Assembly (NCBI GenBank): GCA_022510485.1
Contig: JAFLTI010000007.1
Coordinates: 1-64,000, forward strand
Source of the DNA: Lentimicrobiaceae bacterium
Lineage (GTDB): Bacteria > Bacteroidota > Bacteroidia > Bacteroidales > P3
DNA: 64,000 bases
Reading direction: 5' to 3'
Shown: in pieces, positions 2,942 to 43,162 of the stretch
Layout of the letters: the number at the start of each line of letters is the position of its first letter
Position numbering within the stretch: the stretch's first letter is position 1
Notes under the pieces: generated by a model
What the model was told of the DNA's origin: nothing
The model's input: the letters and a program-made list of their open reading frames with translations, nothing else
Database searches by the model: none
Program-made: the position numbers and the translations under genes

Positions 2942-3046
2942 CCAAGCCAAGTGTGAACTTGGCTTGGTAACGGGCACTGCCTTGTCAGTTCCAAAGCAAG
3001 CTTTGTCCCTGCTGCGGCAGTGCCCGTTACCCAAACAAGTTTTGGG
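2942..3046 (+). other. cluster of three hairpins, possible structured RNA or mobile palindrome element
   Basis: Hairpin A: perfect 10-bp arms 2942-2951 / 2958-2967. Hairpin B: perfect 14-bp arms 2968-2981 / 3016-3029 with an inner AAAGC/GCTTT stem. Hairpin C: 6-bp arms 3030-3035 / 3041-3046. They follow one another without gaps. GGCTTGG at 3051-3057 could alternatively pair with CCAAGCC at 2942-2948. If transcribed from the box at 2897-2904 this would be a structured leader; it could equally be a non-autonomous repeat element. Confidence 0.5.
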
Positions 3047-33223: not shown

Positions 33224-35341
33224 GTGGGTAAAGACAAAAAACATACAGCGCCGTCAGACAAAAGAACGGGCTTTTCGAGAAAGGTGTATTTGGTATATGC
33301 CTTTTTGCTCGTTTTTGCCGTAGCGGTGGTTTTTCGTATGAGCAGGGTGATTTTTGTGGAAGGGCGCGGCTTGTTGGAGAAATCAGACAGGCAGAGCCTG
33401 CGTTATCAGAAGACCCCTGCCGTAAGGGGCAATATCTATTCGGCGGATAATTCTCTTCTGGCGGTGTCTGTGCCGTATTTTGACGTACGCTTGGATTTGC
33501 ATCCCGATGTGGTTTGCAACGATACCTTTAATCAGAATCTGCGCCCCTTGTGCGACAGCCTGCATAAGATGTATCCCGAAAGGAGCAGTGCCGGTTATCG
33601 TCAGATGTTGGAAAAGGCACGCAAGGAGCGCAAGCGCAATTTTCTCTTGCGTAGAAATGCAACCTATTCCGAAATGAGCCGTCTCCGTACTTTTCCCATT
33701 TTCAATAAAGGGCAGTATAAGGGTGGCTTTATAGTGGAAGAAAAAGAAAGACGGGTCCGTCCGCATGGCTTATTGGCAAGCCGTACCATAGGCTACTATA
33801 ATCAGGAATCCGCTACGGGAGTGGGTTTGGAACAGGCTTATCAGAAAGAGTTGTGCGGCATTGACGGAAGACGCTTGGAACAAAAGGTTTCTAACGGTGT
33901 GTGGCGGCCGGTGTATAACTCAGACGCGGTGCAGGCTGAAAATGGAAAGGATTTGTTTACCACCATCGACATACGTATACAAGACGTGGCGGAATCTGCC
34001 TTGAAGGATTGTATGGAGATAAACGAAGCTGAACACGGTTGCGTGGTATTGATGGAGGTAAAGACGGGCAAGGTGGTGTCTATCGCCAATCTACGCAAGG
34101 AAGAAAACGGTACGTATCACGAAAGCATGAATTATGCCGTAGGCGAGGCGGTGGAACCCGGCTCTACCTTTAAGTTGGCTTCTACCATAGCCATTTTAGA
34201 AGACAGTCATTGTTCACCCTCCATCATAGTGCCTACTGGAAAAATGCAGTTCTATAACAGATGGATGCGGGATTCGCACAAAGGAGGCTGGGGTAATGTA
34301 AGCCTGCAGGAAGCCTTTGAGAAATCGTCGAACGTGGGTATTTCTTATTTGGCAAACGAAGTGTTTCATAAAAAGCAGGCGCGCTTTGTGGAATATTTCA
34401 AGAAAATGCGTTTGCATAAACCTCTCGGAGTGGAGATTGCCGGGGAGGGAGTGCCGTATATCAAAGACCCTTCTGACAAAACTTGGTCGGGGGTTTCCCT
34501 GCCTTGGATGTCGATTGGCTACGAATTGAAGCTTACCCCCTTGCAGATTTTGACTTTGTACAATGCGGTGGCTAACGACGGCAAGATGATGAAGCCGCTT
34601 TTTGTGAATGAAATCCGCCAAGGGGATGAGGTGGTAAAGAAGTTTGAACCTCAGGTGTTGGTGGATAGGATTTGCAGTAAGGAAACCTTGGAAAAGGTAA
34701 AGACCATGCTGGAAGGGGTTGTGGAAAACGGAACGGCAACCAATCTGAAGAATGACCTGTATAAAGTGGCTGCCAAAACGGGAACAGCTCAGATAAACTA
34801 TGGCAAAAGGGGAAGCGAAAAGATGACCTATCGGGCTTCGGTTGCCGGTTATTTTCCTGCCGATAATCCTCGCTATTCGTGCATTGTGATGATTACCAAT
34901 CCGCAGAAGAACCGTATTTACGGCGGTGCGGTGGCAGGACCGGTATTTAAGGAGATTGCCGATAAAGTGTACGCTACCCTGATGAAGGGCGGTTTGCAAA
35001 CTGAAAGTTTGCCCCCGGCAGAAGCCGGCGCGCCGGCTTCTGCCGGGTACGCCGCCGATATATCTACGGTGTTTGCCCATATCGGCTTGCGCGACCCCAA
35101 ATTGGAGCCGACCTCGTTTGTTAAGCTGCGCGGCGGCGCAAACCGCCCCGGCGAGATTGTGCTGATGAAAGAGGTAATGCCCGATGTAAGGGGGCTTGGT
35201 TTGCGTGATGCTGTGTATCTGTTAGAAAAAAACGGACTCAAAGTGCAGGTAAGCGGCAAAGGAAAAGTAAAAAGGCAAGAGCCGGAGGCAGGTAGAACTT
35301 GTGCCAAAGGTCAGCAAGTTTTTTTGGAATTGGCAGGATAA
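33224..35341 (+). CDS. ftsI: division transpeptidase PBP3/FtsI with PASTA domain
   Basis: Encodes 705 residues, GTG start at 33224. One membrane segment (about 20-42), a dimerisation domain (RGNIYSADNSLLAVSV), and the transpeptidase domain with SxxK in EPGSTFKLAS, SxN in KSSNVGISY and KTG in AAKTGTAQINYG. A C-terminal PASTA domain follows (MPDVRGLGLRDAVYLLE). Cross-links septal peptidoglycan. Odd: between the two domains, nucleotides 35014-35047 form a perfect 34-bp palindrome encoding an Ala/Gly/Pro-rich patch (about residues 597-608). The stop is 1 bp before the murE start codon. Confidence 0.94.
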   Translation: MGKDKKHTAPSDKRTGFSRKVYLVYAFLLVFAVAVVFRMSRVIFVEGRGLLEKSDRQSLRYQKTPAVRGNIYSADNSLLAVSVPYFDVRLDLHPDVVCNDTFNQNLRPLCDSLHKMYPERSSAGYRQMLEKARKERKRNFLLRRNATYSEMSRLRTFPIFNKGQYKGGFIVEEKERRVRPHGLLASRTIGYYNQESATGVGLEQAYQKELCGIDGRRLEQKVSNGVWRPVYNSDAVQAENGKDLFTTIDIRIQDVAESALKDCMEINEAEHGCVVLMEVKTGKVVSIANLRKEENGTYHESMNYAVGEAVEPGSTFKLASTIAILEDSHCSPSIIVPTGKMQFYNRWMRDSHKGGWGNVSLQEAFEKSSNVGISYLANEVFHKKQARFVEYFKKMRLHKPLGVEIAGEGVPYIKDPSDKTWSGVSLPWMSIGYELKLTPLQILTLYNAVANDGKMMKPLFVNEIRQGDEVVKKFEPQVLVDRICSKETLEKVKTMLEGVVENGTATNLKNDLYKVAAKTGTAQINYGKRGSEKMTYRASVAGYFPADNPRYSCIVMITNPQKNRIYGGAVAGPVFKEIADKVYATLMKGGLQTESLPPAEAGAPASAGYAADISTVFAHIGLRDPKLEPTSFVKLRGGANRPGEIVLMKEVMPDVRGLGLRDAVYLLEKNGLKVQVSGKGKVKRQEPEAGRTCAKGQQVFLELAG
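35014..35047. repeat. perfect 34-bp GC-rich palindrome inside ftsI
   Basis: The 17-bp arm CCCGGCAGAAGCCGGCG (35014-35030) is followed without a gap by its exact reverse complement (35031-35047). 28 of 34 bases are G or C, far above the flanks. In frame it reads PAEAGAPASAG. It looks like a small palindromic element inserted into a permissive linker. Confidence 0.85.
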
Positions 35342-35342
35342 G

Positions 35343-36857
35343 ATGAAAAACGGAAATCCGACATTAGAGGCATTGCTTGCCGAATGTAAACCCGCTGTTG
35401 TGGGTTCTTGGCAAAGCACAGGAACATTGAACAAGGAGGTGCTTGGTCTGGCGCAGGATTCGCGTGCCGTTGCACCCGGTTTTGTGTTCTTTGCCATTAA
35501 AGGTACGGTGGTAGACGGACACGATTATATCGCCAAGGCTATTGAATCGGGAGCTGTGGCGGTGGTATGCGAAAGGCTGCCGGAGCAGGTTCAAGAAGAT
35601 ATTACCTATATCCGTGCAAGCGACAGCAGTATGCTTATGGGCTATATGGCTTCGGCTTTCTATGGGCATCCTTCGCAAGAACTGCAATTGGTAGGCATTA
35701 CCGGTACCAACGGAAAGACTACTACGGTAACGCTCCTATACCGCCTTTTCAGGCAGCTGGGCTATAAGACGGGGCTGCTTTCTACAATAGAAAACCGTAT
35801 CGACACCCAAGTGGTTGCCAGCACCCATACCACCGGCGATGCTTTGGAGCTCAACGCGCTTTTGCGCCGTATGGTAGACGAAGGCTGTGAGTATGCCTTT
35901 ATGGAAGTAAGTTCCCACGCGGTGGTGCAAAACCGTATAGCCGGCTTGCAGTTCAAGGGCGGCATCTTCAGCAATATCACGCGCGACCATTTAGATTACC
36001 ACAAGACTTTCGATGCCTATATCAAGGCAAAGAAATTGTTTTTTGACCGTTTGCCCGCTACGGCTTTTGCCTTGGTGAATACAGACGACCGCAACGGAGA
36101 GGTGATGTTGCAGAATACCGAGGCTCTTTGCCGCACGTATTCGCTGCGGTCGCCCGCCGATTTTAATGTAAAGGTGCTGGAAAATACCCTTGAGGGTTTA
36201 TTGTTGGAAATTGACGGAACCGAAGTGAATATGCGCTTGGTGGGTCGGTTCAACGCCTATAATCTTGCTGCCATTTATGCTTGTGCCATCTTGTTGGGTA
36301 TGGAAAAAAACGAGGTGTTGTGCGCTATGAGCCGCCTTACCGAAGCACCGGGGCGTTTTGAAACATTAAAGTCGACTGCCGGCAATAAATTGGGTATAGT
36401 AGACTACGCCCATACGCCCGATGCCTTGCAGAATGTGCTTTCTACCATCAACAGTATGCGTGATCATCTGCGTGAGGTAATCTGCGTGCTGGGTTGCGGC
36501 GGAAACCGCGATTCGGGCAAACGCCCCGTCATGGCGCAGATTGCCGCCGATTTGAGCGACCGCCTTATCATCACTACCGATAATCCTCGCTTTGAAGAGC
36601 CTCAAGCTATCATAGACCAGATGTTGACAGGGCTTTCGCCTACCCAACGAGCCAAAACGCTCTGCATAACCGACCGCAGGGAGGCTATCAGAACGGCTTG
36701 CGCCTTGGCAGGAGATGGCGATGTGGTTTTGGTGGCAGGCAAGGGTCACGAAAACTATCAGGAGATAAAAGGCGTAAAACACCATTTCGACGATAGGGAA
36801 GTATTGGCTGAATGTCTTCCTGCCGTATGGAATAATGCACCTAAAAGTGATGAATAA
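35343..36857 (+). CDS. murE: UDP-MurNAc-L-Ala-D-Glu:meso-DAP ligase
   Basis: 504 residues from the ATG at 35343, which directly follows the ftsI stop. Visible: [16 protein letters not shown] (UDP-binding), ATP loop [21 protein letters not shown], the TRDHLDYH motif, [14 protein letters not shown] and [11 protein letters not shown]. The last region corresponds to the DNPR-containing domain ([10 protein letters not shown]), the signature for meso-diaminopimelate specificity, which agrees with a complete dapF in this window. Confidence 0.95.
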
Positions 36858-36874: not shown

Positions 36875-38125
36875 ATGTTGTATTACCTATTTTCTTATTT
36901 ACACGAAGAATTTGGACTGCCGGGAGCGGGTGTGTTCAACTACATTTCGTTCCGTGCGGGATTCGCCATCGTGCTTTCGCTTATTATCATGATGATGGGC
37001 GGTAAGCGTATGATAGTTTATCTGCGCAAAAAACAGATAGGGGAAACCGTGCGCGAATTGGGCTTAGACGGTCAGAAAGAAAAAGAAGGTACTCCCACTA
37101 TGGGCGGTCTTATCATCATTGCCGCCATTCTCATTCCGGTACTGTTGCTCTGCCGGTTGGACAACATCTATGTTTTGCTTATGCTGTTCACCACCGTGTG
37201 GCTGGGTATTATGGGTTTTATGGACGACTATATCAAGGTGTTCAAGCATAACAAGCAGGGTCTTCAAGGAAAGTTCAAGGTGTTCGGGCAGGTAGGCTTG
37301 GGGCTTATCGTGGGTTTGGTAATGTGTTTTCATCCCGATGTGGTGGTATCTCAAAAAAACAATACCGCCTATGTAAAAACGCATAATGTGCTGAATGAAA
37401 CCGCCTACGATGAAGCTACGGCAGAATTTGAAAGCAATGTGGAGAAATCTATGGTTACCACCATTCCTTTTGTAAAGGGGCATGAACTCGACTACGAGGG
37501 CATTATGGAGTTCTTTCATACCGGCTGGGGCAAATACACGTGGATATTGTTCGTGCTGGTGGTGATATTGGTAATTACCGCCGTATCAAACGGCAGCAAC
37601 CTTACCGATGGCATCGACGGGCTTGCCACCGGTACTTCGGCTATTATCGGGGCTACTTTGGCTATCCTCTCTTGGGTTTCGGGCAATATTGTCTTTGCCG
37701 ACTACCTCAACATTATGTATATCCCCCACGTAGGAGAGCTTACCATATTTATCTCCGCCTTTGTGGGAGCCACCATCGGTTTTCTGTGGTACAACACCTA
37801 TCCGGCGCAAGTGTTTATGGGCGATACGGGCAGCCTTACCATAGGCGGCATCATTGCCGTATTTGCCCTGTTGATCCGTAAGGAACTGCTTTTGCCCATT
37901 CTTTGCGGAATATTCTTGGTAGAAAGCCTGTCGGTAATTATGCAGGTATCTTATTTCAAATACACTAAAAAACGTTGCGGGGAGGGAAAGCGCATCTTCA
38001 AGATGACGCCTATACACCACCACTATCAGGTAATCGGATACAAAGAGCCCAAAATCGTGATGCGGTTCTTCATTATCGGACTCCTCTTGGCGGTAGTAAC
38101 CTTGGTAACCTTAAAACTTAGATAA
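36875..38125 (+). CDS. mraY: phospho-MurNAc-pentapeptide translocase
   Basis: Encodes 416 residues with about ten membrane segments. Active-site motifs: [19 protein letters not shown] (two Asp), [13 protein letters not shown] and [11 protein letters not shown], plus MTPIHHHYQ near the end. Makes lipid I from UDP-MurNAc-pentapeptide and undecaprenyl phosphate. A periplasmic insert (about 155-205) typical of Bacteroidetes MraY is present. Ends 10 bp before the truncated murD. Confidence 0.95.
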
Positions 38126-40967: not shown

Positions 40968-42356
40968 GTGGATAGGCTTACCATAACATATCCGTATTTT
41001 TTGGGAATAGGCGGCATCGGAATGAGTGCCTTGGCTTGCCATTACCTGCACGCAGGTTGTAAGGTGGCAGGCTACGACCGCATTTCAACGCCGCTTACCC
41101 GAAAATTGGAAGCTATGGGAGCGGAAATCCATTATACCGAATCGCCCGGATTGATTCCTGCCGGCATTGATGCAGTGGTTTATACTCCGGCTGTACCGTC
41201 TACCCACGCCGAATGGGCAGAAATAAAACGGCGGGAACTGCCGGTTTACAAACGGGCGCAGGTGTTGGGAATGTTGAGCCGTCAATACAAAACCTTGGCA
41301 GTGGCAGGCACGCATGGAAAAACCACCACTTCGGCTCTACTGGCATATCTGCTGCACGGCAGCATAGGCTGCAAAGCCATTTTGGGAGGTATTGTTCCCG
41401 ATTTGGGCGGCAACTATCTGCACGATGAAAAAAGCTCCTATCTTGTAACGGAAGCCGATGAATACGACCGTTCATTCCTACAGTTGCATCCATGGTTTTC
41501 GGCGGTTACGGCATGGGATGCCGACCATCTTGATATTTACGGCAATGTAGAGTCCATGCGTGAGGCATACCTGCAATTTATGCGGCAGTCGGAGCATTTT
41601 ATAGCCGAGTGCTCGTTGCAGCTGCCTTTGCAGCCCGACTATGTTTACGGCATACAGAACCAAGCGCACGCAGATTGCGGTACAAAGGCGGCTTTTGCCT
41701 ACAACCTGCAAGTAAAAGATTGTTGTTACAACTTTGATTATTCGGGTCCGAAAGCCGTTATCGAAAATTTGAACCTGTCTTGTCCGGGCAGGCATAATAT
41801 CCAAAATGCGGTGGCGGCAGTAAGCCTTGCCTTGGAAGCCGGAGTGGAACCGCAGGAAATACGCAGGCTTTTGCCCCTTTTCAGGGGAGTTTGCCGCAGG
41901 CTGGAACGCTGCTTTTCGCAGCCGGGATTAGCGTATTACGACGATTATGCCCATCATCCGGCAGAAATAACGGCAAGTTTCAATGCCTTGCGGGAATTTT
42001 ATCCCGATTACCGCCTTGCGGTAATGTTCCAGCCGCATCTGTATTCGCGCACACGCGACTTGGCGCAAGATTTTGCCTTGAGCCTGAGCCAAGCCGATGA
42101 ACTTTGCCTGATAGATATTTATCCGGCACGCGAAGAACCGATTGCAGGTGTTGATACGCGCCTGATAGGCGAAAAAATAACGAACATTCCGGTGCGTTAT
42201 GCCAACAGGAAAAACGCCCTGTTGCAGGTAGAACGTTATCTGGAAGAACAAAAAAAGAAGCAAGAAAAACTGTTGCTCATTACCATGGGTGCCGGCGACA
42301 TAGATACTTTGGTTGAACCCATAGTAGGCTGTTTGCAGAAAGGAGGGGCGGTATGA
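40968..42356 (+). CDS. murC: UDP-MurNAc:L-alanine ligase
   Basis: Encodes 462 residues, GTG start. FLGIGGIGMSALACHYL, ATP loop VAGTHGKTTTSALLA, EADEYDRSFLQL, AWDADHLDIYG and YDDYAHHPAEI are MurC signatures, all three domains present. Adds L-Ala to UDP-MurNAc. Its last 4 bp overlap the ftsQ start. The cluster therefore contains complete MurC and MurE but an incomplete MurD. Confidence 0.95.
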   Translation: MDRLTITYPYFLGIGGIGMSALACHYLHAGCKVAGYDRISTPLTRKLEAMGAEIHYTESPGLIPAGIDAVVYTPAVPSTHAEWAEIKRRELPVYKRAQVLGMLSRQYKTLAVAGTHGKTTTSALLAYLLHGSIGCKAILGGIVPDLGGNYLHDEKSSYLVTEADEYDRSFLQLHPWFSAVTAWDADHLDIYGNVESMREAYLQFMRQSEHFIAECSLQLPLQPDYVYGIQNQAHADCGTKAAFAYNLQVKDCCYNFDYSGPKAVIENLNLSCPGRHNIQNAVAAVSLALEAGVEPQEIRRLLPLFRGVCRRLERCFSQPGLAYYDDYAHHPAEITASFNALREFYPDYRLAVMFQPHLYSRTRDLAQDFALSLSQADELCLIDIYPAREEPIAGVDTRLIGEKITNIPVRYANRKNALLQVERYLEEQKKKQEKLLLITMGAGDIDTLVEPIVGCLQKGGAV

Positions 42357-43162
42357 AAAGGGTGATACGGACAGTTTTGATTCTTTTCTTTTTCGCGCTC
42401 TTGGCAGGAACGGCAGTAGTTATGCTGCGGTATTCGGCACAGCAGGGAGAAGAAACGCCCTGCACGGCTTTGGAAATAGATATAGAGCGTGGAAATTTTG
42501 AAGTCTATCTGCAAAACCGCGACATTGAGAAATGGTTGGCAAAGCACGGTATATCCATATCGGGTAAAAAAATTGCGGAAGTAAGCACCTCCAATATAGA
42601 ACAAGTGTTGTTGCAGAATCCCTATGTGGGCGGAGCGCAAGTGTTCCTGACACTCGACGGTATATGCCACCTCAGAGTGGAGCAGCGCAATCCGGTACTC
42701 AAAGTGGTTTCTTCCAAGGGGCAGATGTTCCAGATAGACAGGAACGGCATCGAGATGCCTGTCAATACAGACTATGCGGTTCGTCTGCGCGTGGCAAACG
42801 GTTATATTCCAGTTACGCCGCAATATGGTCTGGATGTTACCCGAATTGCCGATACCTTGCGCAAATCCGTATTGAAAAGGCTTTACGAAATCAATGCGTT
42901 CTTGAGCGCGAATCCGTTCTACGACGCCATGTTTGAGCAGATATACGTAAACCATTCGGGCGAATATGAACTTGTGCCTAAGGTAGGCGGACAATTGGTA
43001 AAGCTTGGAAAGGTGGCGGACTTGGCGGATTTGGAAAACAAAATGAAACGCTTGGATCTTTTTTACCGTCAAGGAGTGAATATGGGCGGCTGGGAAAAGT
43101 ATTCGGTATTGAACCTAAAGTACAGGAACCAGTTGGTGGCTACAAAACGTGCAAATTTTTAA
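42353..43162 (+). CDS. ftsQ: division protein FtsQ
   Basis: Encodes 269 residues. Short cytoplasmic N-terminus, one membrane segment (7-24, VLILFFFALLAGTAVVML) and a periplasmic POTRA-like domain (SGKKIAEVSTSNIEQVLLQNPYVGGAQVFL-type region), then the beta domain (RVANGYIPVTPQ). Scaffold of the divisome between FtsA/Z and FtsL. Call rests on topology, motif pattern and position between murC and ftsA. Confidence 0.88.
   Translation: MKRVIRTVLILFFFALLAGTAVVMLRYSAQQGEETPCTALEIDIERGNFEVYLQNRDIEKWLAKHGISISGKKIAEVSTSNIEQVLLQNPYVGGAQVFLTLDGICHLRVEQRNPVLKVVSSKGQMFQIDRNGIEMPVNTDYAVRLRVANGYIPVTPQYGLDVTRIADTLRKSVLKRLYEINAFLSANPFYDAMFEQIYVNHSGEYELVPKVGGQLVKLGKVADLADLENKMKRLDLFYRQGVNMGGWEKYSVLNLKYRNQLVATKRANF

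Follow-up and report, generated by a model that had tools for sequence, protein, structure and literature searches.

Comparison of the aligned genes shows that two adjacent hairpins within the coding sequence of ftsI, a perfect 34-bp palindrome (P3) and its neighbor (P2), have been retained in five sister species despite sequence change, which always affects both sides of a base pair. The covariation goes beyond what phylogeny and composition would produce, as judged from five species only. On balance, we interpret the hairpins as parts of a structured mRNA element that is specific to this clade and lies in the transpeptidase-PASTA linker, where selection for the RNA fold maintains it and template switching probably provides the matching mutations. 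The broader reading, in which the RNA is functional whether or not template switching contributes, is one we consider a little more probable. More tentatively, the element could be a recent regulatory RNA three-way junction within an essential division gene, the fold of which would dictate linker residues (E-S, A-A, and P-G covarying by base pairing and not by protein contact).

The ftsI gene lies on the forward strand at positions 33224-35341 of the window, the whole 64,000-nucleotide stretch of Lentimicrobiaceae DNA that was analyzed. Its open reading frame (ORF) encodes a PBP3-type transpeptidase of 705 amino acids with a C-terminal PASTA domain (Pfam matches: PBP_dimer, 64-218; Transpeptidase, 272-579; PASTA, 651-704). 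A homolog was present in every genome of the genus (13/13), which takes in a record named Candidatus Pullibacteroides excrementavium (Bacteroidales). A record titled Ruminococcus flavefaciens (JAMPAI010000001.1, L028) also carries an ftsI that is 78% identical to the Bacteroidales ftsI of the window; as its coding sequence equals that of one of the sister species (G004), this record is very likely mislabeled. The strongest silent-site conservation of ftsI across the five species was found at 34061-34123 (residues 280-300), where 8 of 12 codons are invariant, which could reflect another overlapping signal or codon selection.

The palindrome occupies positions 35014-35047, and the first-pass annotation had described it correctly as perfect and gapless, with 17-nt arms and 82% GC (a hand count found G or C at 14 of the 17 arm bases). 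It is also in frame, encoding PAEAGAPASAG (residues 598-608) between the transpeptidase and PASTA domains, and the ftsI linker there does tolerate change, in agreement with the permissive linker that had been proposed. That such a palindrome is unlikely to arise by chance was likewise borne out. Random pairing predicts 4e-6 palindromes of this kind per 64 kb, or about 1e-4 per 2 Mb; with the window protein fixed and codons redrawn by codon usage, the chance of a 17-nt arm in its register was 0.0008 (0.0008-0.002 for each of the four species with perfect palindromes). No other gapless palindrome in the window exceeds 18 bp. A separate inverted repeat, with perfect 16-nt arms and a 34-nt loop, lies at 2966-3031.

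Perfect palindromes of 32 bp were found at the same codons in three sister species, with arm sequences that all differ from one another and from those of the window species (G000): CCGGAGGCA-GCCGGCGCGCCGGC-TGCCTCCGG in G010, CCGGAGGCG-...-CGCCTCCGG in G004, and CCGGAAGCT-...-AGCTTCCGG in G003. Arms are thus perfect in four of the five species; the fifth, G008, has an imperfect palindrome, comprising an 11-bp stem and a rearranged top with a bulged inner stem. G010, G004, and G003 encode an identical peptide (PEAAGAPAASG), and the differences between them are silent, each matched by a partner change in the opposite arm. E and S have both shifted by one codon in the window species and still stand opposite each other. 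Paired changes fall at both silent and amino acid-changing positions. The palindrome is set in a register in which codon third positions oppose third positions, while first positions oppose second positions. Alignment columns 33-54 take three pair types and columns 36-51 all four Watson-Crick types. Over P2 and P3 together, seven pairs differ among the five species, each at both partners and never at one alone, and the five covariation measures were reached by 0, 1, 0, 0, and 0 of 500 shuffles. At the outermost position of P3, three species have G-U, one has C-G, and one has U-A; this pair forms as sense RNA, whereas as DNA it would be mismatched in the three G-U species. At codon positions 1 and 2, linker GC content was 88%-92% in the hairpin species vs 54%-71% in other members of the genus, which indicates that the amino acids follow the pairing.

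The whole predicted RNA element is a three-way junction of 69 nt (34988-35056, forward strand), based on an RNAalifold consensus of the five sequences and a covariance model that matched 34988-35059 at 98.5 bits, this sequence being in its training set. The consensus comprises P1 (6 bp), P2 (7-8 bp with a GAA loop), and P3 (15 bp). In the window, the 5' strand of P1 (GGCGGT) is at 34988-34993 and its partner (GCCGCC), placed by the consensus and by folding in flank contexts, is at 35051-35056. P2 is a 7-bp hairpin at 34996-35012 with an invariant GAA loop at 35003-35005, and P3 is the palindrome itself, which as RNA would form 15 bp and a CGCG loop. Pairs changed on both sides number five in P3 and two in P2. 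All pairs formed in four species (28/28), compared with 22/28 in G008, and the predicted fold of the window species reaches about -51 kcal/mol per 72 nt. P2 covaries independently (ACT/AGT, ACC/GGT, and ACG/CGT; CAA/TTG vs GAA/TTC), with a mean pair probability of 0.77-1.0 in every sense context folded, and P2 and P3 persist whatever flank is folded with them. P1 is without covariation support because it never varies. Its codons (GGC GGT and GCC GCC) are invariant, silent sites included (joint P of 0.0014 by amino acid), while elsewhere invariance was found at 21 of 157 Gly sites, 33 of 119 Ala sites, and 0 of 46 GGT sites. Scored codons just outside the element vary without exception (13/13; eight at residues 580-588 and five at 612-625). 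Nonetheless, P1 was out-competed in most species once 60-100 nt of flank was included in the fold, and may accordingly be conditional or absent.

To place these hairpins against background rates, stems of at least five pairs formed in every species were surveyed in 12 aligned genes (14,559 columns; all five species in 7 of the 12 genes and four species in the others, with the antisense ORF row at 42239-43072 left out). P3 ranked at the top of the 550 stems paired in all species: 445 had no covarying pair, 96 had one, 8 had two (including P2), and P3 had five. A neutral simulation of silent sites on the tree, with branch lengths set by hand and roughly fitted to observed fourfold-site identities, yielded P ~1.4e-6 for all four outer third-third pairs being paired with at least three covarying. 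Codon-fixed folding gave z-scores of -4.7, -3.6, -3.1, -3.1, and -3.5 in the five hairpin species, against a range of -1.3 to +1.2 among the remaining eight members of the genus. A sliding fold scan along ftsI on a coarse grid also placed the element at the extreme in the window species, and not in L007 or L008. Throughout about 260 kb of the window and its relatives, gapless inverted repeats with arms of at least 11 nt were confined to the four in ftsI (ORF labels in this count are loose, being taken from stop-to-stop frames). A 300-kb sample of G003 contained seven hairpins with arms of at least 13 nt, of which one sits at an ORF's 5' edge and the other six lie outside any ORF, and no coding hairpin comparable to that of ftsI.

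Two other repeats were observed in the sister genomes. Two near-identical 28-bp inverted repeats (GCAAAAAACAAGC..GCTTGTTTTTTGC) lie 75 bp apart at an ORF 5' edge in G003 (L077:7055-7157). In G008, a 12-bp hairpin with a 4-nt loop (L061:17072-17099) falls within the ortholog of the window gene at 36875-38125 (read as mraY), a gene in which the other species have no listed hairpin with arms of at least 11 nt.

When the linker was excluded from the ftsI tree, the five hairpin species formed one group (support 83/99; 87% of bootstrap trees). On the distribution of these sequences, the element maps to a single origin at the base of this five-species clade. No hairpin was found at the ftsI linker in the eight other genus members. 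Searches with the covariance model (R1) under strict filters recovered the element in 5 of 190 family genomes, which are the known five, and matched the window species alone in an order sample of 393. Among wider-family ftsI loci (14 of 17), the best listed C-terminal hairpins with arms of at least 8 nt were five short AT-rich ones at four loci, and none was comparable to the GC-rich linker hairpin. Viral contigs yielded no further element sequences, and among open PMC papers, none was found that describes a palindrome or structured RNA within ftsI of Bacteroidales.

We propose that selection acts on the fold of the sense-strand RNA, with matching double changes probably arising by template switching from one arm to the other and selection keeping those that preserve the fold. 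The two processes are compatible, in line with the argument that Monttinen and Loytynoja make for RNA genes (PMC8794818). Selection on the RNA fold would explain why both hairpins are retained, why the P1 codons are frozen, why three species have a G-U closing pair, and why the element is isolated in the genome. Template switching would explain why the arms are perfect, why one-sided changes are lacking, and why silent change is raised between G004 and G003. The very stable predicted fold would act in cis on the ftsI/dcw mRNA, most likely by slowing ribosomes after the transpeptidase domain and before the PASTA domain is made, or, as the next likeliest action, by marking where the mRNA is processed or protected.

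Several conventional identities were also considered for the element. A Rfam search of 34500-35600 gave three sub-threshold matches and none at the gathering score. An intrinsic terminator was rejected, as TACGCCGCCGATATA comes after the hairpin and a T run is absent. A programmed -1 frameshift was likewise rejected, with no in-frame X XXY YYZ upstream in the listed sequences (inspected by eye); the -1 frame at the element is open for 8 to 88 codons with an end that is not conserved, and the +1 frame meets an immediate stop. No Bacteroidetes-type promoter motif was seen near the element. Given the lack of a T run, slippery site, or nearby promoter motif, a cis effect on elongation or on dcw operon mRNA processing is our first guess.

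A serious rival to a structured mRNA element, if on the whole an unlikely one, is a functionless mutational palindrome in a permissive linker, in which template switching during replication (quasipalindrome correction) would keep the two arms matched irrespective of any effect. It is serious in that arms tend to be either flawless or missing altogether. Four palindromes match at every base, a perfection that extends through the unpaired CGCG loop, and one-sided G-C to G-U steps are absent, although selection on RNA should permit them. Silent change between G004 and G003 is also raised within the palindrome (4 of 12 palindrome codons vs 75 of 693 in the rest of ftsI, p 0.036), and all of it is compensated, which conversion fits better than constraint. 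Template switching has been proposed to create and maintain hairpins (PMC8794818), arm homogenization by template switching has been proposed in yeast coding DNA (PMC8604942), and the near-total perfection of Nematomorpha coding palindromes is read in a similar manner (PMC6649704). Moreover, the evidence for a structured mRNA comes from five species only, two of which are closely related, and these same five served to train the covariance model. Counting against a functionless palindrome are the joint retention of two neighboring hairpins, the frozen P1 codons, the want of any comparable coding hairpin in the 300-kb G003 sample, and the pairing retained in G008 despite its imperfect palindrome.

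Two further explanations fare less well. An ORF-internal small RNA cut from the ftsI mRNA, by analogy with FtsO of Escherichia coli, is improbable. There is precedent in the same gene, since FtsO is described as an ORF-internal sRNA sponge in ftsI, but FtsO conserves wobble sequence (91% vs 67%; PMC7815308), whereas structure is kept more than sequence here, and no Rfam match reached the gathering score. It is very improbable that the PAEAGAPASAG linker was selected as a peptide, with the palindrome as a by-product of A, P, and G codons. The linker is indeed GC-rich, and the residue combinations P-G, E-S, and A-A account for the pairing of first with second codon positions. Nonetheless, the E and S residues shift together, the chance given the protein is only 0.0008-0.002 in each perfect-palindrome species, and covariation between the arms extends to silent third positions (columns 33-54 and 36-51). 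This silent covariation, within the sequences compared, already contradicts a by-product of the protein.

The first-pass annotation had viewed the palindrome as inserted in ftsI and as a possible mobile repeat of the Rickettsia kind, and had suggested searching the genome for the arm and comparing ftsI in relatives. Neither further copies nor an insertion relative to the sister species was found. The arm occurs at a single place in its own genome (1.96 Mb, 66 contigs), in which no second copy of the arm or palindrome was detected with up to three mismatches, and a generalized form of the palindrome occurs at one place each in G000, G003, G004, and G010 and is absent from G008. Codon alignment gave equal lengths for the window species and all four sisters that bear the hairpin, and in place of an empty site the sisters have palindromes with other arms; the codon count is also equal in most genus members, with L014-L016 being two codons shorter nearby. 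The annotation had further held that a unique arm, with its residues conserved through non-palindromic codons, would refute a mobile repeat. The arm is unique, while the second part is reversed, with the codons of relatives being palindromic and covarying. A mobile palindromic repeat or an assembly artifact is suggested by shape alone and can be dismissed with near certainty, given one place per genome, sister species without an indel, and four separate assemblies with different palindromes at the same codons and an open frame in all.

Rickettsia palindromic elements are in-frame palindromes in protein genes. They are mentioned alongside coding palindromes in a study of Nematomorpha mitochondria, and are there stated to lose arm identity over time (PMC6649704), whereas the ftsI palindrome is unrepeated, involves no insertion, and has arms that are perfect rather than decaying. 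The ftsI palindrome also resembles the Nematomorpha coding palindromes themselves, which that study describes as perfect inverted repeats in essential protein genes, with arms that vary between species and are mutually identical, as in ftsI. Those palindromes are, however, numerous, up to 284 bp long, and mitochondrial, with multiple gains and losses (PMC6649704), while ftsI has one 34-bp site on a bacterial chromosome, with one origin and a second covarying hairpin adjoining it. RNA hairpins maintained by template switching similarly show compensatory stem changes, and are described for RNA genes (PMC8794818), whereas the ftsI case is protein-coding. The ftsI element offers a compact natural test of hairpin perfection through RNA selection vs self-correction of palindromic DNA, and it displays residue covariation that stems from base pairing, a trap for covariation-based methods of predicting protein contacts. 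FtsO (PMC7815308) resembles the proposed element, by analogy, in having an RNA function that overlaps the ftsI coding sequence, and differs in that wobble sequence is conserved in FtsO and pairing is conserved here. If functional, the element would represent a further RNA function layered on ftsI after that of E. coli FtsO, in an unrelated lineage and with a different design.
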